In this document: in pieces, positions 2,630 through 22,600 of the stretch | How the letters are laid out: the number at the start of each line of letters is the position of its first letter | How positions within the stretch are numbered: the first letter of the stretch is position 1 | Origin: a virus | Virus record (IMG/VR): IMGVR_UViG_3300042332_002128 | Span: 1-24,570 of that record | DNA: 24,570 nt | Direction: 5' to 3' (one strand) | Notes under the pieces: model-generated | What the model saw: the letters and a program-made list of their open reading frames with translations, nothing else | The model's database searches: none | Told to the model about the DNA's origin: nothing | Translations under genes and position numbers: made by a program

Positions 2630-2700
2630 GCGGTGTTGCAGGACGTGAGAAGGGGAAGCTCACCAATCTAGGCAAGTTCGGGTGCAAAGCCCGACACCGC
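2630..2700 (+). ncRNA. tRNA-like structured RNA element in the leader of the methyltransferase gene
   Basis: A perfect 7-bp stem joins 2630-2636 (gcggtgt) to 2694-2700 (acaccgc), spanning 71 bases. Directly against its 3' strand sits a hairpin with stem cggg 2679-2682 and cccg 2690-2693 and the 7-base loop tgcaaag. The placement is that of an acceptor stem stacked on a T arm. A third hairpin pairs gtgag 2645-2649 with ctcac 2659-2663 around a 9-base G-rich loop. There is no normal D arm, no standard anticodon arm, no CCA, and the loop is not TTC-type, so this is not an ordinary tRNA. It could be a degenerate tRNA, a tRNA mimic or a cis-regulatory leader of the methyltransferase gene, whose ATG lies 27 bases downstream. 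The pairings are seen; the function is inference. Confidence 0.35.
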
Positions 2701-2726
2701 ACGCAAGACATTTGAACGGGGGAAAA

Positions 2727-3881
2727 ATGGGTCTAACAGGCGTCTCACTCTTTGCTGGTATTGGCGGGTTTGAGCTAGCTATGACGAGGGTTGGCATTTC
2801 GCCAGTCGCTTCAGTCGAGATCGACAAAAAAGCAAGCGGTGTGCTTACTGAGCATTTCACCGACACTACAATCATGGGCGACATCAAGGGGGTAACAAGT
2901 GCAGACTTATTCAGTGCAGGATTTGATTCAGCAAACGGAATTATCACTGGCGGATTTCCATGCCAAGACCTGTCCGTTGCGGGTCGAAGGGCAGGGCTGG
3001 CAGGAGAGCGCAGCGGACTCTTTTGGGAAATCCACAGACTTATCGACCAAACCAAAACGAAGTGGTTCGTCCTCGAAAACGTCCCTGGCTTGTTGTCATC
3101 AAACGACGGAAGAGATATGGGAATCGTCCTCGGGTCGTTGGCAGAGCTCGGGTATGGGCTCGCGTACAGAGTTCTTGACGCTCAGCACTTTGGAGTCGCC
3201 CAGCGACGCCGTCGTGTCTTCATTGTCGGACGTCTTGGAGACGACTGGCGAACACCTGCAAAAATACTCGATCTCGGCGAAGGCCGCAGAGGGTATCATC
3301 AGAAGAGCATCACGAAGGGGCAAGGTGTTGCCACCGAGATTGATGCAAGCACTGCTACGAGCTACGGGCAGACAGGATTCTCAAGGTATACCGAGGGCGT
3401 CACAACCCTAACACACTCTCAACACAAGAGGCCTGAAGACAACATAGTCGTCGAGCCCTACGTCAAGATAGTGCGGTCGGGCGAGCGCGACGCTGAGGGC
3501 AACCTGCCAGCTGAGGTGTGGGCAGAACGCCAAACCGCGCCGACTTTGAACTTGATGGACAACACGGGAGAGTCTAGGGCCACGGTGATTGTGTTCAACC
3601 CGCACAAAGAGGACGGCGCTCGCGTGCAAGGAGATGTCATTAACACGTTGACAGCGTTGATGGGTACTGGCGGCAACAACGTCCCCATGCTCACGGCCGC
3701 TTCGGCTATTCGCCGCTTGACACCAGTAGAGTGTGAACGCTTGCAGGGGTTCCCTGACGATTGGACTCAGATCTCAAACGGCAAGCAACAAGCAGACGGC
3801 TCGCGGTATAAGCAGACTGGTAACGCAGTTGCGGTTCCAGTTGTACAGTGGATTCTTGGAAGGATAGCCCTGAGTGAGTAA
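2727..3881 (+). CDS. DNA (cytosine-5) methyltransferase
   Basis: A 384-residue enzyme that transfers a methyl group from S-adenosylmethionine to carbon 5 of cytosine in DNA. The family motifs stand in order: I, SLFAGIGGFE (about 7-16) binding SAM; IV, GFPCQ with nucleophile Cys79; VI, Glu117-Asn118-Val119; VIII, QRRRR at 159-163; a variable region of about 100 residues or more holding target recognition; IX around TPVECERLQGFP; and X near the end, GNAVAVPVVQWIL. The set is complete, so the enzyme should be active. I chose ATG 2727 because of its ribosome-binding site (acgggggaa) and because motif I then starts at residue 7. An in-frame ATG at 2682 lies inside the structured element. No restriction endonuclease is adjacent, so this is an orphan enzyme, probably guarding phage DNA. 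It overlaps the primase gene by 8 bases. The target sequence cannot be read from the protein. Confidence 0.93.
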   Translation: MGLTGVSLFAGIGGFELAMTRVGISPVASVEIDKKASGVLTEHFTDTTIMGDIKGVTSADLFSAGFDSANGIITGGFPCQDLSVAGRRAGLAGERSGLFWEIHRLIDQTKTKWFVLENVPGLLSSNDGRDMGIVLGSLAELGYGLAYRVLDAQHFGVAQRRRRVFIVGRLGDDWRTPAKILDLGEGRRGYHQKSITKGQGVATEIDASTATSYGQTGFSRYTEGVTTLTHSQHKRPEDNIVVEPYVKIVRSGERDAEGNLPAEVWAERQTAPTLNLMDNTGESRATVIVFNPHKEDGARVQGDVINTLTALMGTGGNNVPMLTAASAIRRLTPVECERLQGFPDDWTQISNGKQQADGSRYKQTGNAVAVPVVQWILGRIALSE

Positions 3882-6093
3882 CCTCGAAGTTCTAACCGCT
3901 GCGCTCAGGTTTGCGGCCGCGGGCTGCTCAGTCGTGCCAGTCATGGCCGACGGCTCAAAGCGCCCAGGCATTGGCGCTTGGAAAGAATACCAACACAAAT
4001 TGCCGACCGTTGAAGAACTGCAGGCTTGGTTCAAAGACGCCAAGGGCGTCGGTATCATCACGGGCAAGATCTCAAACAACCTTGAAATGCTCGAGGTCGA
4101 GGGTCGCGCCGTAGCTGACGGCATTCACACTGAAATCAAAGACATGGCAATCGAGACTGGACTTGGCGAACTTTGGCAACGGCTGAACGAGGGCTACTGC
4201 GAAATGACCCCAAGCGGCGGTCTGCACTGGTTCTACCGCATAGACGGTGAAGTGCCTGGCAATACAAAGTTAGCTAGACGCCCCGCTTCAGGCGACGGCG
4301 TTGATGTGCTGGCCGAGACCCGTGGCGAGGGTGGCTTCGTGGTTGCAGCCCCCAGCGGCGGGTCTTGTCACCCCTCAGGTGGTTCTTGGTCTTTGATTTC
4401 GGGCTCGATTGAGACAATCCCGACCATCACCTCAGGAGAGCGCGAAGCACTGCACTCCCTCTTTAGATATTTCGACCAGCTTCCGAAGGCCTCAATAGTA
4501 GCTTCAGAGGTCACGGAGAGGCATCGGGACGCGAACTCGACACTTCCAGGCGACGACTACAACGCAAAGACCAGTTGGGACGAGATCTTGTTGCCACTGG
4601 GTTGGACAAAGGTATTTTCAAAGGCACAGACTACCGCTTGGTGCAGACCAGGCAAGACTGAAGGCATCAGCGCCACCACCAACTATGAGGGCTCAGATCT
4701 GCTCTTTGTCTTTAGCACTAGCACAATCTTTGAAGCAGAGCGCGGCTACTCCAAGTTCGCGGTTTATACCTTGCTGGAGCACGGCGGAGACTTCCACAAG
4801 GCAGCGTCAGCGCTGGCCGCGAAGGGCTTTGGCAGTGGCAGTTCAAGTGCCCTGCAACCGATTGATATTTCACAGCTGATGCAAGCGCCCGAGCCCGAGC
4901 CATTCGCAGAGCCTGTGACAGAGCCCGACACCAGCTGGCTTCCAAGAGCGATTGAGTATGACGAGGACGAGACCGAGGCTGGCCCTACGGTTCTCTACCG
5001 CACAGACGGGCAGTGCTTGCTCTACGCTGGAAAGATTAACGCCATATTCGGAGAGTCAGAGTCAGGCAAGACTTGGGTGGCACTGGAAGCGGTGCGTCAA
5101 CAACTGGTGCAAGGCAACAAAGTCTTTTATATTGACTTCGAGGATTCAAAGCGTGGTATTCGAGGTCGTTTGAAGGCACTCGGTGTCATGCGAGATCACT
5201 TTGTCCGTTTCAAGTACGCCAACCCTGACGGCTCTTACAACGAGATCGCCCAGCAAGCACTGCTCGGCTCGATTCGCGACTTCACCCCCGACCTGATTGT
5301 GATGGACGGAGTCAACGCCGCCATGAACCTGTTGGGACTAGACCTTGAAAAGAACAAAGACGCCACCCAGTTCAGTCAGGTGGTCTTGCGGCCGCTTCGC
5401 CTTTGGGGTGCTGCTGTCTTGACCATTGACCACGTCACAAAGTCCAAAGACAACCGAGGCAACTACGCAATCGGTGCTCAGGCCAAGCGTGCAGACATTG
5501 ACGGCGTCGCCATCTCGGTGGACGTGTCTATGCCTTTTGGCCGAGGCTCCAACGGCAAGCTGAATCTGAAGATCACCAAAGACCGCCCAGGCTTCGTCCG
5601 TGGCATCAGCCAAGAGGCTTCCTATGTCGGCCACGTCGATCTGATTTCGCAAGCTGACAACCGAATCGAGATCTCCATTGTCGGCGGGCAGGTCGGTTTT
5701 ACCCCTCATGAGTATTTGATGCGCAAGGTCTCGGAGTTCATGCAGAACCACGGCGCAGAACTTTCGACCAATCAAATCGTCCAAGCGATTGACGGTGGCA
5801 CCGACCAGATTAAAAAGGCGCTCGCCCAACTCGAGGGGCAGGGCTTCTTGGCGATTAGAGCTCAGGGGCAGGGGCGCTATTACAAGCACCTCAAGTCCTT
5901 TGTCTTGGGAGCGCCTCAGCCATTTGGCGGCGTCCTAGATAACTTGACCGACTTGACCGACCCTGACCGCGAGGGTATCGGTCAAGTAGGGGCAAGAGGC
6001 GACCGAAACTTGACCGACTTCGCCCCCCCCTATAAGGGGGGGCGGTCGGTGAAGTCGGTCAGCAGTGGTGATGGTGAACCCGATGCAGGATAA
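3874..6093 (+). CDS. primase-polymerase / RepA-like helicase fusion (replicase)
   Basis: A 739-residue replication protein. The N-terminal Prim-Pol domain of the archaeo-eukaryotic primase type spans about 5-190, with acidic pair Glu74-Val-Glu76, SGGLHW with His118, and a GEGGFVVAAPS strand. The middle (about 200-340) has the region often found in Prim-Pol phage proteins (LPGDDYNAKTSWDEIL). A RecA-fold helicase follows, with Walker A GESESGKT at 393-400 and Walker B DLIVMDG at 473-479. Residues about 610-680 look like a winged helix. The tail is repetitive and encoded by the hairpin region described separately. It should prime, possibly extend, and unwind DNA at the fork. The start GTG 3874 overlaps the methyltransferase stop and is preceded by ggaagga. 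No PolA, PolB or PolC gene is visible, so this may be the main phage polymerase, as proposed for S-2L. Glu in place of the more usual first Asp of the metal pair is worth noting. Confidence 0.88.
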   Translation: MSNLEVLTAALRFAAAGCSVVPVMADGSKRPGIGAWKEYQHKLPTVEELQAWFKDAKGVGIITGKISNNLEMLEVEGRAVADGIHTEIKDMAIETGLGELWQRLNEGYCEMTPSGGLHWFYRIDGEVPGNTKLARRPASGDGVDVLAETRGEGGFVVAAPSGGSCHPSGGSWSLISGSIETIPTITSGEREALHSLFRYFDQLPKASIVASEVTERHRDANSTLPGDDYNAKTSWDEILLPLGWTKVFSKAQTTAWCRPGKTEGISATTNYEGSDLLFVFSTSTIFEAERGYSKFAVYTLLEHGGDFHKAASALAAKGFGSGSSSALQPIDISQLMQAPEPEPFAEPVTEPDTSWLPRAIEYDEDETEAGPTVLYRTDGQCLLYAGKINAIFGESESGKTWVALEAVRQQLVQGNKVFYIDFEDSKRGIRGRLKALGVMRDHFVRFKYANPDGSYNEIAQQALLGSIRDFTPDLIVMDGVNAAMNLLGLDLEKNKDATQFSQVVLRPLRLWGAAVLTIDHVTKSKDNRGNYAIGAQAKRADIDGVAISVDVSMPFGRGSNGKLNLKITKDRPGFVRGISQEASYVGHVDLISQADNRIEISIVGGQVGFTPHEYLMRKVSEFMQNHGAELSTNQIVQAIDGGTDQIKKALAQLEGQGFLAIRAQGQGRYYKHLKSFVLGAPQPFGGVLDNLTDLTDPDREGIGQVGARGDRNLTDFAPPYKGGRSVKSVSSGDGEPDAG
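5943..6061 (+). repeat. iteron-like repeats and large stem-loop at the 3' end of the primase gene (possible origin)
   Basis: The 9-mer cttgaccga occurs at 5943-5951, 5952-5960 and 6009-6017, and its reverse complement tcggtcaag at 5978-5986. A long stem-loop follows: tgaccgactt 6011-6020 pairs with aagtcggtca 6052-6061 (10 bp), and inside it 6021-6029 pairs with 6036-6044 (9 bp, almost all G:C) around the loop ctataa, with a 7-base bulge on the right arm. All this lies in coding sequence that yields a low-complexity tail (NLTDLTD, PPYKGGRSV). Repeats plus a hairpin next to the replicase is the layout of a replication origin. A regulatory or terminator-like role between the primase and the downstream operon is the alternative. 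The pairings are seen; the function is inferred. Confidence 0.5.
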
Positions 6094-6415: not shown

Positions 6416-7450
6416 ATGGCAGGACGTCTTATCGCCGTAGTCGGCGGTCAGTATGGTAGTGAAGGAAAGGGCGCCGTAGCAGGCTACCTATCCGCAACCT
6501 CTGATGCACCATTCATGGGAATCAGAGTGGCAGGACCAAACGCAGGGCATACCGTTATCGGCAAAGGCCCCAACGGCGAGGAGTCATATGCTTGGCGACT
6601 TCGCTCAATCCCAGTCAACGCAGTGACTGCACCCGAGTCTGACCTCATTATTGCGGCAGGCTCTGAGATCGACATGGAAGTCTTTAACAGAGAACTTTCA
6701 GAACTGGACAAAGCAGGCTACCAAGCCAGCTCACGCATCATCGTGGACGACCAAGCTACAATCTTGGAGCCTCGCCACCATGATATCGAGACCAGTGACG
6801 GCATTCAAGCCCGAATCGGCTCAACCAGCAAAGGCATCGGCGCTTCACGTGCTGACCGCATTATGCGCAAGGCTTCTCTGTTCGGTGGTGGCGTAGATAC
6901 TTCACAAGTTATTCGCGAGCACCTACAAAGAGGCGGCACTGCTCTAATCGAAGGCACACAAGGCTACGGCCTTGGACTGCACGCAGGTCTGTACCCGTTC
7001 TGCACAAGCCAAGACTGCAGGGCCTTGGACTTCTTGTCGCAAGCTGGTGTCAGCCCGTGGGACCGCGCAGTTGATGTCTTTGACATTTGGGTCACAGCCC
7101 GCACCTACCCAATCCGTGTTGCTGGCAACTCGGGACCGCTAGAGAACGAGACCAGCTGGGAACAACTGGGGCTAGAGGCTGAGCGCACGACCGTGACTCA
7201 AAAGATTCGCAGAGTCGGGCACTTTGACAGCAAGTTGGTGCGTGACGCCGTCATTGGCAACGGTGGTGCTCCAACTGTCAAGATCGCACTCACCATGTTT
7301 GACTACATCTTTCCTGAGTTGAAAGATCAGGGTCAAATAGATATCTTGTCTGAGGAACAACAACGCTACATCACCGACATTGAAAGTGCAGTGAATGCAC
7401 CAGTCAAGTTGGTGGGCACTGGACCTTCAACGATGGCGTGGGTCAAATAA
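6416..7450 (+). CDS. purZ: PurZ, 2-aminoadenylosuccinate (N6-succino-dZMP) synthetase
   Basis: A 344-residue member of the adenylosuccinate synthetase family, shorter than bacterial PurA (about 430). The P-loop reads GQYGSEGKG, with Ser15 where PurA has its catalytic Asp (WGDEGKG). Loss of this Asp is the known mark of phage PurZ, which condenses dGMP with aspartate to N6-succino-2-amino-dAMP, the first committed step to dZTP. Other family parts are present: GPNAGHT, GSTSKGIG at 135-142 (PurA has GTTGRGIG), EGTQG from Glu179, and YPFCTS. The protein is thus an intact enzyme with a shifted substrate and not a decayed PurA. It has a strong ribosome-binding site (aaggggg), and its TAA overlaps the next ATG (TAATG). 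A true PurA for host-like AMP synthesis is the alternative, but the Ser15 change and the MazZ-like neighbour argue against it. Confidence 0.9.
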   Translation: MAGRLIAVVGGQYGSEGKGAVAGYLSATSDAPFMGIRVAGPNAGHTVIGKGPNGEESYAWRLRSIPVNAVTAPESDLIIAAGSEIDMEVFNRELSELDKAGYQASSRIIVDDQATILEPRHHDIETSDGIQARIGSTSKGIGASRADRIMRKASLFGGGVDTSQVIREHLQRGGTALIEGTQGYGLGLHAGLYPFCTSQDCRALDFLSQAGVSPWDRAVDVFDIWVTARTYPIRVAGNSGPLENETSWEQLGLEAERTTVTQKIRRVGHFDSKLVRDAVIGNGGAPTVKIALTMFDYIFPELKDQGQIDILSEEQQRYITDIESAVNAPVKLVGTGPSTMAWVK

Positions 7451-7839
7451 TGGCCTTCGAGAGCTGGGAAGATGTGGCAGCGGCACTTCGAAAAGAGGCG
7501 CCCACCAAAGATGCACCGACTGTTCAGAGTCTTGCTGACTGGTGGTTGGACGAGACCAAAAGCGAACTAGACTCTGTTATACCAAAGGCCGTGGAATACG
7601 GTAGCGCAGATCTAAAAGTCATCGGCTTCGCTTTGAGTCAAATGATTGGCAAGCCGACCAATGTGACTGAGGACGAGTTGGGCATCGCGTTTTACGTTCT
7701 CGGCAAAGTTGCACGGCTGATCGGTGGCTATGCAGATGGCAGAGCGCCTTCTGACGACACATGGCACGACATCGCTATCTACACAAAGATGGCGCAGTAC
7801 GCACGCAAGCACAACGGCTGGGGTGGATTCGTCGAATGA
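7450..7839 (+). CDS. mazZ: MazZ-like (MazG-fold) nucleotide pyrophosphohydrolase
   Basis: A 129-residue, mostly helical protein. Acidic residues fall on helices as expected for an all-alpha NTP pyrophosphohydrolase: Glu35 and Glu39 in DETKSELD, Glu49 in VEYGSAD, Glu76 in ELGIAFYVLGKVAR, and Asp102-Asp107 in SDDTWHD. The pattern WW...PKAVEYG...ELGIxFYVLGK is one I associate with MazG-like proteins of actinophages. MazZ enzymes paired with PurZ hydrolyse dGTP (and GTP) to the monophosphate, giving PurZ its dGMP. Direct TAATG coupling to purZ is strong functional context. ATG 7450 is preferred to the GTG at 7438. The MazG-type fold is likely; the MazZ assignment rests mainly on the purZ partnership. 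The other known reading is a general house-cleaning MazG. Confidence 0.8.
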   Translation: MAFESWEDVAAALRKEAPTKDAPTVQSLADWWLDETKSELDSVIPKAVEYGSADLKVIGFALSQMIGKPTNVTEDELGIAFYVLGKVARLIGGYADGRAPSDDTWHDIAIYTKMAQYARKHNGWGGFVE

Positions 7840-8264
7840 TAGTCTACCTCGCTGGCCCGATTGATTTCGTCACAGGCTCCAAAGTAAACAAGCTAAAAGA
7901 CGAAATCAAAGCACACTTTAAAGAGCAAGAGTGTGTGTGGGTGTACGACCCAGCTGGTGCATGGAACGCACCGAGCGACCTCGTACCTGACGAGTTCGTG
8001 CACTGGGCCAATCTGCTTGTGCTCGAGCAATCCGACCTTGTTGTTGCAGTGTTGACGAAAGGCGTGCTCACAGTGGGCACAATCCTCGAAATCCAGCACG
8101 CACACGACAATGAGATTCCTGTCGTTGTAATTGGCGACCTTGGGATTAACAGCGTAGGACTGGCAGCGCTTGAAGTGCCAGTATTCGAATCAATAATGGA
8201 ATGGAGTGACTGTGGCAGCCCTGTTGTACCGCGTACTGACGCCGACTGGCTTAGCGCCAACTAA
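7836..8264 (+). CDS. nucleoside 2-deoxyribosyltransferase / dNMP N-hydrolase-fold protein
   Basis: A 142-residue protein of the fold shared by nucleoside deoxyribosyltransferases and the DNPH1/MilB nucleotide N-hydrolases. Seen: the N-terminal strand YLAGPID (4-10), DPAGAW (38-43), Asp67 in SDLVVAVLT, and Glu85 in GTILEIQHA, at the place of the catalytic Glu that attacks C1' of the sugar. The last strand is IPVVVIGD. It is joined to mazZ by ATGA, and its last 19 or so codons overlap dut. Family chemistry is either base exchange between deoxynucleosides or cleavage of a dNMP to base and sugar phosphate. In this operon it could destroy dAMP, or salvage or exchange bases to favour dZ, but the substrate cannot be read from the sequence. 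The fold call is good; function within the Z pathway is inference. Confidence 0.72.
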   Translation: MIVYLAGPIDFVTGSKVNKLKDEIKAHFKEQECVWVYDPAGAWNAPSDLVPDEFVHWANLLVLEQSDLVVAVLTKGVLTVGTILEIQHAHDNEIPVVVIGDLGINSVGLAALEVPVFESIMEWSDCGSPVVPRTDADWLSAN

Positions 8265-8643
8265 GGCGTATGGCGACGATGCAGGTTTCGATCTGTATTG
8301 CGATGCTGAAATGGTGATCGAACCTAGCACCTTTGTGGACGTCCCACTCGGTGTTGCAATCAAAGTGCCTGAGGGGACTTGGGGTTTGCTAACAGCTCGC
8401 TCCAGCACCTTGCGCAAGCACGGCCTCATGGTGGCACAAGGTGTCATCGATTGTGGCTACACTGGCCCACTCTTTGCAGGAGTGTGGAACATGACTGACA
8501 AACCCGTCAAAATCGAGCCTGGCATGCGCTTGGTTCAGTATATCCTTATGACCAACGCTTCTCTTGATGTCCAAGCACAAGAGGTGGCAGAACTTCCCAA
8601 AACCGACCGTGGCGCTTCGGGTTTTGGGAGTTCAGGTGTCTGA
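8206..8643 (+). CDS. dut: deoxyuridine 5'-triphosphate nucleotidohydrolase (dUTPase)
   Basis: A 145-residue trimeric-type dUTPase, hydrolysing dUTP to dUMP and pyrophosphate. This keeps uracil out of DNA and feeds dTMP synthesis. Conserved motifs are all present: I, DAGFDL at 25-30; II, Arg65-Ser-Ser67; III, GVIDCGY from Gly79 with Asp82 and Tyr85; IV, PGMRLVQYIL; V, RGASGFGSSG at 135-144. The start GTG 8206 lies 59 bases inside the previous gene. It is supported by the site ggaatgga and because the first beta strand (LLYRVL) is needed for the family fold, so the long overlap appears real. Thymidine pairs with dZ in a Z-genome, so clean dTTP supply remains important there. Confidence 0.93.
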   Translation: MTVAALLYRVLTPTGLAPTKAYGDDAGFDLYCDAEMVIEPSTFVDVPLGVAIKVPEGTWGLLTARSSTLRKHGLMVAQGVIDCGYTGPLFAGVWNMTDKPVKIEPGMRLVQYILMTNASLDVQAQEVAELPKTDRGASGFGSSGV

Positions 8644-9784: not shown

Positions 9785-9935
9785 CACGCGCTAAGCGCAG
9801 CATCCCCCTGGCATTTTTCCACCCCCCCTCGAAGTTCAAAAATCCACGCGTACAGAGACCCCGCTACCCCAAAGGACGCGGCGCGTACGGATTCGGGATT
9901 TGACATATTCGCATTTTTTGCATTTTAGGAGATAC
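9785..9935 (+). other. intergenic region with possible cos/packaging site and terS leader
   Basis: A 151-base gap, the longest in the window, lies between HNH and the small terminase gene, where cohesive-end sites of HNH/terminase phages usually lie. It contains C runs (9804-9808 and 9822-9829), a T run (9813-9817), and a 7-base direct repeat cgcgtac at 9847-9853 and 9882-9888. ttgaca at 9900-9905 is a perfect -35 hexamer, but 17 bases later only ttttag is found, so a promoter is doubtful. The strong ribosome-binding site of terS (ttaggag) ends the region. No gene is seen in it. The cos assignment rests on location. Confidence 0.35.
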
Positions 9936-12064: not shown

Positions 12065-14986
<2,922 letters not shown>

Positions 14987-14987
<1 letters not shown>

Positions 14988-16628: not shown

Positions 16629-16847
16629 ATGAGCAAAGTAATAGAGGTTGACTGTTCAACAGGCATCTCAACCGAGCGCGACATGACCGAGGCTGAACTT
16701 GCAGCGCATACCGAAATGCAAGAGCAAGCTATAGCGCGGCGTGCTTTAGAAGAAGAAACAGCCGCAGCCAAAGCCGCAGCAAAGGCTTCAGCTGAAGCGA
16801 AACTCGCAGCGCTTGGCTTAACAGCAGACGAAATCGCAGCACTCTAG
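16629..16847 (+). CDS. small Ala/Glu-rich helical protein
   Basis: A 72-residue protein from ATG 16629. A short beta start (SKVIEVDCSTG) is followed by an Ala/Glu helix (about 20-66), likely a coiled coil, ending LGLTADEIAAL. Proteins of this form often follow tail-fibre genes and may act as fibre assembly helpers or small tail components. No specific family is recognised. Confidence 0.58.
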   Translation: MSKVIEVDCSTGISTERDMTEAELAAHTEMQEQAIARRALEEETAAAKAAAKASAEAKLAALGLTADEIAAL

Positions 16848-16867
16848 TGAACAAGGTCGGGGGACCA

Positions 16868-17944
16868 ATGAGATTTCACGTTGTATCGCTTCCACATACA
16901 AATACCACTAAAGACTTCACAAGTTGCGCATTCACTGAAAAAGTGCGGCGCTTCTGCATCATGATGACAAACCTCGGCCATGAGGTCGTTCTTTATGCTG
17001 GCGAGGAAAACGAAGCACCAGTGGCAGAACTCGTCACTTGTATCAACGAGAAGCAACGAGCTGCTGCAACTGCAGGCGGTCATTACACGACGGCTTCATT
17101 TGACACGACACTGCCGCACTGGCAGGTCTTTAATGCAAACGTCGTTCGCGAGATGACCACAAGGCTTCAACCAAAAGATTTCATCTGTTTAATCGGCGGC
17201 TACGCACACAAGCCAATCGCAGACGCTTTCCCCGACCACATGTCGGTGGAGTTTGGCATCGGCTATGGTGGCACATTCGCACGATACCGCGTTTTCGAGT
17301 CCTACGCATGGATGCACTCGGTCTATGCAGGGCACAAGAACCCGACAACCGTAGATGGCAACTTCTTTGATGGGGTTATCAACGGCTACCTTGAACCCGA
17401 AATGTTCCCAGCTGGCAAAGGCGACGGCGACTACTACTTTTTTATTGGCAGGCTGATCGAGCGAAAAGGTTACAACATCGCGCAAGAAGTCTGCGAGCGC
17501 CTCGGCAAGAGGCTCATAATCGCTGGCCCTGGCCAACCAAATGGCGGCTATGGCGAGTTCATCGGCAACATCGGCCCCCAAAAACGGGCAGAGTTGATGG
17601 GTGGCGCGGTTGCGTTGTTTGCGCCGACCACCTATATTGAGCCTTTCGGCAATATTGTGGTCGAAGCTCAGGCTTGCGGCACTCCGACAATCACCACCGA
17701 TTGGGGCGCCTTTACTGAGACCAACGTTCACGGAGTAACTGGCTTCAGGTGCCGCACACTTGCAGACTTCATGAAAGCGGCAGAGGACGTCAAGTCTTTG
17801 AACCGCAAAGAGATCAGAAAGCAAGCAATCGAGAAATACTCACTCGAGGCTATTGCACCAAAATACCAAGACTACTTTGAGCGGCTGTTGACCCTTTGGG
17901 ACGACGGCTGGTATCAACTAAGCAAAGAAAAGGCTGGCAAATGA
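16868..17944 (+). CDS. glycosyltransferase, GT-B fold (GT4-like)
   Basis: A 358-residue glycosyltransferase. The C-terminal half has FFIGRLIERKGYNIA, LIIAGPGQPNGG, and the E-x7-E motif in IEPFGNIVVEAQACGTP, which binds the nucleotide-sugar donor in retaining GT4 enzymes. The N-terminal half (MRFHVVSLPHTNT, then GHEVVLYAGEEN) is the acceptor side. ATG 16868 is chosen over GTG 16847 for its site (tcggggga). The gene sits between fibre genes and portal, overlapping the portal start by ATGA, so it is expressed with virion proteins. It may glycosylate fibre, capsid or tail proteins, or alter host surface glycans to block superinfection. DNA glycosylation seems less likely but is not excluded. Family firm; acceptor unknown. 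Confidence 0.85.
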   Translation: MRFHVVSLPHTNTTKDFTSCAFTEKVRRFCIMMTNLGHEVVLYAGEENEAPVAELVTCINEKQRAAATAGGHYTTASFDTTLPHWQVFNANVVREMTTRLQPKDFICLIGGYAHKPIADAFPDHMSVEFGIGYGGTFARYRVFESYAWMHSVYAGHKNPTTVDGNFFDGVINGYLEPEMFPAGKGDGDYYFFIGRLIERKGYNIAQEVCERLGKRLIIAGPGQPNGGYGEFIGNIGPQKRAELMGGAVALFAPTTYIEPFGNIVVEAQACGTPTITTDWGAFTETNVHGVTGFRCRTLADFMKAAEDVKSLNRKEIRKQAIEKYSLEAIAPKYQDYFERLLTLWDDGWYQLSKEKAGK

Positions 17945-21904: not shown

Positions 21905-22600
21905 ATGAAAGCAAGCCATAAAGTATCTATCGGGGTCTGTGACCCTGGCATGGTGAACGGCGATTTCGCCTTTCGCATGATTCAACTTGCACAATCGCGG
22001 TCTTCTAGACTCGGTCCGTTTGTGCGCACCAAAGGCTCGGGTTTGCTTAGCAAGTTGCGCAACCGAGTAGTTAAGTCTTTTCTCGACGACACCAACTCCG
22101 ATTGGCTTTTGCTGATCGACGCTGACGAACAACTGTCGTTGCAAGCATTCGACCAGCTTATCAACACTGCACACGACAAAGAGCGACCAGTAATAGCGGG
22201 CCTGTACTTTGGGGCTTGGGACGCCAACACAAACCTTTACCCTGTGCCCGTGCCATTAATATTTAAAGACACACCCAAGGGCTTTACACCCCTCAACGAT
22301 TACCAGCGCAACTCGATCTTTGAGGTTGACGCTTGCGGAACTGGGTGCATGCTTATTCATCGCAGCGTGCTTGAAAAAATGCGCGAAGCTGCAGACCCAA
22401 ATCAAGGCACCGACTGGTGCTGGTTTTGGGACGGGCCTATCAATGGCGAGTGGATAAGTGAAGATCTGCTTTTTTGCCGCAGGATTAGACAACTGGGCTT
22501 TCCGATCTACGCAAACACCGCGGCTATCTTGCCGCACCAAAAGACTTACTGGCTTGACGAGAGGCACCACATTGACAGGCAGCTCAACAAAGACAGCTAG
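21905..22600 (+). CDS. GT-A fold glycosyltransferase (GT2-like)
   Basis: A 231-residue enzyme. SIGVCDPGMVNGDF begins the nucleotide-binding fold, LLLIDADEQ contains the DxD motif (Asp-Ala-Asp) that holds the metal and nucleotide sugar, and WISEDLLFCRRIRQLGF gives the ED acceptor-side motif of GT2-type enzymes; ACGTGCMLIHRSVL lies between. Ribosome-binding site aggggga lies upstream of ATG 21905. Its place directly after the capsid gene and before head-tail connectors, with no other sugar gene near, suggests it modifies virion proteins or host glycans. A link to the GT4-like gene at 16868 is possible since the two could act in sequence. Acceptor unknown. Confidence 0.83.
   Translation: MKASHKVSIGVCDPGMVNGDFAFRMIQLAQSRSSRLGPFVRTKGSGLLSKLRNRVVKSFLDDTNSDWLLLIDADEQLSLQAFDQLINTAHDKERPVIAGLYFGAWDANTNLYPVPVPLIFKDTPKGFTPLNDYQRNSIFEVDACGTGCMLIHRSVLEKMREAADPNQGTDWCWFWDGPINGEWISEDLLFCRRIRQLGFPIYANTAAILPHQKTYWLDERHHIDRQLNKDS

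Follow-up and report, generated by a model that had tools for sequence, protein, structure and literature searches.

A PurZ0-type cassette beside a PrimPol replication module predicts a 2,6-diaminopurine genome in an uncultured phage lineage

Phages of Actinomycetota that carry a PurZ0 synthetase also encode DutZ, a dUTPase-fold dATP/dGTP diphosphatase (PMC12884076), and DmtZ, an NDT-family enzyme acting as a dAMP hydrolase and transferase (PMC12884076); the DmtZ and DutZ orthologues of Ghobes and Wayne have been assayed (PMC12884076). DNA polymerase I sequences divide exactly according to the synthetase, DpoZ-2 occurring with PurZ and DpoZ-1 with PurZ0 (PMC12884076). In cyanophage S-2L, the PrimPol accepts A and Z (2,6-diaminopurine) without discrimination, and purity results from dATP hydrolysis (PMC8065100); with these two activities S-2L reaches full replacement of adenine (PMC8065100). 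The DNA examined here, referred to as the window, comprises positions 1 to 24,570 of IMG/VR record IMGVR_UViG_3300042332_002128 and covers about 70% of an uncultured phage genome of ~34 kb. Its features are listed in Table 1.

Complete relatives of the window are 32 to 35 kb long. Four were taken as complete because of exact end repeats (99 bp in G001 and 123 bp in G013) or shared cos-like ends (G007 and G010). Judged from the relatives of the terminase, the host is probably an actinobacterium. A C5-cytosine DNA methyltransferase gene at window positions 2682 to 3881 is an accessory gene, the close relative G001 having ~38 bp in its place. The window also encodes collagen-like tail fibre proteins with long 9-, 18- and 27-bp tandem repeats (12411 to 14222 and 14244 to 14987) and two glycosyltransferase-like genes located amid the structural genes (16847 to 17944 and 21905 to 22600).

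The predicted product of purZ0 begins MAGRLIAVVGGQYGSEGKGAV. The sequence-only reading of this DNA had described a synthetase in which the P-loop Asp of PurA was replaced by Ser, and this was borne out by alignment: Ser15, encoded by AGT at positions 6458 to 6460, corresponds to Ser23 of S-2L PurZ and to the Asp in the GTQWGDEGKG motif of E. coli PurA. The same reading had put the protein about 85 residues below PurA in length; the actual difference from E. coli PurA is 88 residues, which does not identify a PurZ, since archaeal-type PurA structures also have ~340 residues. Of the 18 nucleotide-pocket residues listed for S-2L PurZ (PMC8342488), 16 are kept in the window protein, the exceptions being Tyr203, which is Phe195 here, and Phe306, which is Met294. 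The former is the only change among the dGMP-pocket residues, and the latter, replacing the Phe that stacks on ATP, is common to most of the PurZ0 proteins examined. The dN/dS of purZ against ten relatives was 0.02 to 0.13, indicating strong purifying selection, and on this basis the reading frame is certainly a genuine coding gene.

The protein scored 341.3 bits against the NCBIfam PurZ model NF038379 (cut-off, 300), and every PurA model scored it far under the model's own cut-off. The nearest phage proteins were those of Streptomyces phages Galactica and Hiyaa (51 to 53% identity), followed by those of Gordonia and Arthrobacter phages. In a maximum-likelihood tree of 71 PurZ and PurA proteins, the window protein was placed inside the phage PurZ0 clade (support, 100/100), with the PurZ proteins of S-2L, phiVC8 and ZP6 forming a separate clade (100/99) and PurA forming another on a long branch (100/100). 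The assignment to PurZ rather than PurA was therefore upheld by both score and tree, with the refinement that the protein belongs to the PurZ0 lineage of Ghobes, Wayne and Hiyaa and not to the S-2L type. The only cellular entry in the PurZ0 clade, L073, is a 14.6-kb contig from a Verrucomicrobia metagenome-assembled genome that carries the full PurZ0 cassette together with PurB; it most likely comes from a phage and was placed in that assembly by binning. From these sequence comparisons we consider it very highly probable that the gene encodes a PurZ0 enzyme, with the corresponding predicted activity.

The Ser substitution alone would have been a less secure guide. A scan of cellular genomes yielded 350 relatives, and the Ser P-loop (GSE) was present in 78 of the best 80, although the scan pattern itself selected for GSE. 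A full-length PurA was also present in all 10 genomes with a Ser paralog that were checked, and each of the 9 full-length PurA proteins read from such genomes had the GDEGKGK P-loop. Alternatively, the phage DNA could be normal and the window protein could be either a PurA of reduced length or a Ser paralog of cellular type, serving to raise adenine synthesis or to do something else: chromosomal paralogs share the Ser P-loop, and archaeal-type PurA is just as short. However, the cellular Ser paralogs formed clades of their own in the 71-protein tree, the PurZ scores of the four that were examined, 219 to 228 bits, fell short of the cut-off that the window protein exceeds, and the window protein lies within the phage PurZ0 clade and is linked to DmtZ and DutZ. 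We regard this alternative as very improbable. Ser for Asp was therefore a correct marker in this case but an insufficient one, because cellular paralogs share it, and we caution against reading Z-DNA from this substitution by itself; what justifies predicting a Z genome is the PurZ0 clade together with the cassette.

Some chromosomal Ser-type PurZ-like proteins (L077, 8007 to 11152; L130, 7865 to 11008; L109, 9242 to 11038) were found with a P-loop kinase-like domain, which adjoins the PurZ-like protein in Bradyrhizobium and Microbacterium and is fused to it in Sorangium. Two of the kinase-like partners additionally contained RNase_H_2 and DUF429 domains, and near them lay a gene of dCTP-deaminase-like or trypsin/EAD1 type. 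Such pairs make up a putative cellular nucleotide system, possibly one related to defence.

Table 1. Positions and supporting evidence for the features of the window
Feature	Position	Strand	Evidence or remark
PrimPol (AEP) and AAA/RecA-like helicase protein	3874..6093	+	PF09250, PF13481; AEP motifs
purZ0, candidate succino-2-amino-deoxyadenylate synthetase	6416..7450	+	344 aa; NF038379 score, tree, dGMP-pocket residues
P-loop GGQYGSEGKG, residues 10-19 of PurZ0	6443..6472	+	Ser15 replaces PurA Asp
Unnamed Z-cassette protein of 129 aa, all-helical; predicted pool enzyme, probably like a dNTP diphosphohydrolase	7450..7839	+	purZ linkage, AF2 model
dmtZ candidate, NDT-family dAMP hydrolase/deoxyribose-5-phosphate transferase	7836..8264	+	PF05014; catalytic residues
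dutZ candidate, dUTPase-fold dATP/dGTP/dUTP diphosphatase	8206..8643	+	PF00692; identity to PurZ0-phage DutZ
cos-like genome ends	9860..9870	.	End shared by G007 and G010 at window 9859; shared start at ~9872

The genes downstream of purZ0 are tightly packed and make up an operon with it: the purZ stop codon overlaps the start of the next gene (TAATG), this gene overlaps dmtZ (ATGA), and dmtZ overlaps dutZ. The dmtZ product retains the catalytic triad of Ghobes DmtZ (Tyr6, Asn77 and Glu103) as well as Asp12 and Pro57; its residues Y4, D10, P39, N59, G81 and E85 correspond to Y6, D12, P57, N77, G99 and E103, respectively. All 45 of its phage matches were from Gordonia and Arthrobacter phages of the PurZ0 group. 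Ranked by identity, the dutZ product was 45 to 53% identical to the sampled DutZ proteins of PurZ0 phages and 27 to 38% identical to the sampled dUTPases of other phages. In seven relatives, a PurB-like lyase gene lay just upstream of the position at which the window starts, and the lyase of the complete relative G001 exceeded the TIGR00928 cut-off; the window lacks the last ~10 kb of the genome, so that the presence of PurB and the lack of DpoZ in this part are both deduced from relatives, the closest having ~90% identical DNA. All five genes, including dutZ, dmtZ and the small gene after purZ0, are under purifying selection. It is these neighbours (DmtZ, DutZ and, in relatives, PurB) that decide the case, and from them a genome containing Z is predicted with high confidence.

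The small protein encoded between purZ0 and dmtZ had no match in Pfam. Homologues were found in 31 records of an annotated phage collection, and in Microbacterium, Gordonia and Streptomyces phages their counts per genus were the same as those of PurZ matches. When viral contigs were scanned with this family alone, 79 of the 80 loci found also had purZ; because the query consisted of family members from Z-phages, distant relatives elsewhere would go uncounted. The one exception, L228, is cut at the contig end, with a dutZ/dmtZ gene still present. The family is a component of the Z cassette. An AlphaFold2 model of the protein was helical and confident (pLDDT, 90.7). A fold search of the PDB gave nothing significant (E > 1), MazG, DCTPP1, DR2231 and PRA-PH appearing only at E values of 8 to 10. 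In BFVD the protein's own family came first, followed by many nucleotide-modification-associated (NMAD1) and DUF6378 proteins, the best of these non-family matches having probabilities of up to 0.98 at non-significant E values of 0.15 to 1. A comparison with DUF6378 by hhalign was weak (score, 16.2), all 60 shuffles scoring lower (maximum, 15.3). A match to PHROG 474 ("phosphofructokinase") was weak at 21 bits and was set aside. Direct profile comparison with the DUF5664 of Wayne and with the MazZ of S-2L gave no match, and the protein was therefore not filed under either.

The place immediately after purZ is occupied by mazZ in S-2L, by DUF5664 in Wayne and by the small gene here, from which it follows that the product is probably a dNTP hydrolase if position is taken as the guide. 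Taking all the evidence together, this is our preferred reading, held at about an even chance. There is a somewhat smaller chance that the protein hydrolyses no nucleotides and instead serves PurZ0 or the replisome, either as a regulator or as a structural partner, as suggested by its translational coupling to purZ, the absence of a significantly matching solved structure and the failed profile comparisons with DUF5664 and MazZ. The shared position with S-2L MazZ and Wayne DUF5664 argues against such a role, as do the finding of DUF5664 (PF18909) in Wayne only among all records searched, the BFVD folds, which, though non-significant, include nucleotide-modification-associated and DUF6378 proteins, and the invariant K, E, K, R, D, D and Y residues of the family, which suggest an enzyme. 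As a putative dNTP hydrolase, this gene without a Pfam match, found beside purZ0 in several phage lineages, may be the missing enzyme on the PurZ0 side.

The PrimPol-AAA gene is directly upstream of purZ with one small ORF between them, and its product keeps the AEP motifs ExE, SGGLH and GVD. Only these motifs were used for comparison with the S-2L PrimPol because automatic alignment of the two proteins was unreliable. PrimPol was present in 17/17 lineage records; that of G028 was missed by PF09250 and found by a lineage HMM, and a missing PF09250 match was therefore not read as a missing PrimPol. Family-A polymerase (DNA_pol_A) was detected in none of the 17 lineage records, four of them complete. 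Among 50 other PurZ0 records, the same search detected it in 29. An HMM built from six DpoZ-1 proteins was run on ten lineage records and matched none, searches of the lineage for pol III alpha and pol B were negative, and outside the tail region every ORF of G001 large enough for a polymerase had an assignment. These absences reach as far as the Pfam and DpoZ HMMs detect, and a more diverged polymerase could escape them. DatZ-type HD and DUF550 (MazZ-type) domains were likewise not detected in the lineage, the S-2L positive control being matched, and neither was DUF5664. The PrimPol-AAA protein is thus the only DNA polymerase candidate found in the lineage, its activity being predicted. The nearest group outside the lineage in the PurZ tree (L153 to L155) has DpoZ-1 and the next, L156, has a PrimPol of the window type, so the Z cassette has been combined with either replication module. 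Two viral records of 73 and 81 kb (G045 and G048) had the PurZ0 cassette, with neither DNA_pol_A nor a PF09250 PrimPol detected.

A pathway can be proposed from these genes. DutZ and the small protein would cleave dGTP and dATP to the corresponding monophosphates, dGMP and dAMP, and PurZ0 would join aspartate to dGMP, using (d)ATP, to form dSMP. The phage PurB, encoded outside the window and seen in relatives, would release dZMP from dSMP, and host kinases would convert it to dZTP. DmtZ would either destroy dAMP or transfer the deoxyribose-phosphate from it to free Z. Copying of the DNA, by the phage PrimPol or else by the host replicase, would make no distinction between A and Z, adenine being kept out by emptying of the dATP pool as in S-2L, here with enzymes of the PurZ0 type. 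Since no Z-selective polymerase was found in the lineage, Z would be enforced by control of the nucleotide pool; we consider discrimination of this kind reasonably likely, and the simplest reading is the pool-control logic of S-2L, with DutZ and DmtZ taking over from DatZ and MazZ. Overall, an uncultured phage making ZTGC DNA by a PurZ0 pathway with pool control is an explanation in which we have considerable confidence.

Without DpoZ, imperfect depletion of dATP might instead leave a genome that mixes A and Z, as could be expected from the lack of a Z-selective polymerase in the lineage and from the blindness of the S-2L PrimPol to A versus Z (PMC8065100). We think such partial incorporation unlikely, as S-2L is fully replaced using PrimPol and dATP hydrolysis (PMC8065100) and as the genes for DutZ, DmtZ and the small protein are all under purifying selection. 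Returning to pool control, its strongest form, a widespread uncultured lineage fully substituted with Z by pool editing alone through DutZ, DmtZ and a new small helical dNTP hydrolase, is put forward tentatively.

The window shares the PurZ0 clade with the Actinomycetota phages Ghobes and Archimedes (Gordonia), Wayne (Arthrobacter) and Hiyaa (Streptomyces) (PMC12884076), and, as in those phages, DutZ and DmtZ are neighbours of the synthetase. Ghobes, Archimedes and Hiyaa have a PurB-like lyase, as do the window's relatives. A homologue of the small gene adjoins purZ in these three phages and in Goodman, Olihed and Parvaparticeps, whereas Wayne has DUF5664 instead. The seven characterised PurZ0 phages examined all have DpoZ-1 (DNA polymerase I), most with a separate primase, whereas the window lineage has PrimPol-AAA only. 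The PurZ0 family is known, and the new elements are the unnamed cassette protein and a configuration that lacks a Z-selective polymerase; neither was reported in a literature search (main texts of openly readable papers). Bridgettevirus phages of Arthrobacter globiformis, such as Peas, have a PrimPol whose N-terminal domain is ~52% identical to that of the window but no annotated purZ in the 26-kb stretch examined, and their DNA is presumably canonical. A PurZ0 cassette on a PrimPol-only replication module suggests that a Z-selective polymerase is probably not essential, and because it lacks one and has the added small protein, this phage can test how normal adenine is excluded.

The closest parallel in replication is S-2L, in which PrimPol is likewise the sole polymerase candidate, DpoZ is absent and purity comes from dATP removal, as inferred here. 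The gene order is also alike, with purZ followed by a small protein (MazZ in S-2L) and then an enzyme that removes dATP. However, S-2L has a synthetase of the PurZ clade with DatZ and MazZ, whereas the window has PurZ0 with DmtZ and DutZ, and the PrimPol profile of the window lineage had no match to the S-2L PrimPol. If the proposal of full substitution by pool editing is true, the lineage would be the PurZ0-side counterpart of the S-2L solution, achieved with other enzymes, and the small protein would be a partner of PurZ0 that had escaped notice.
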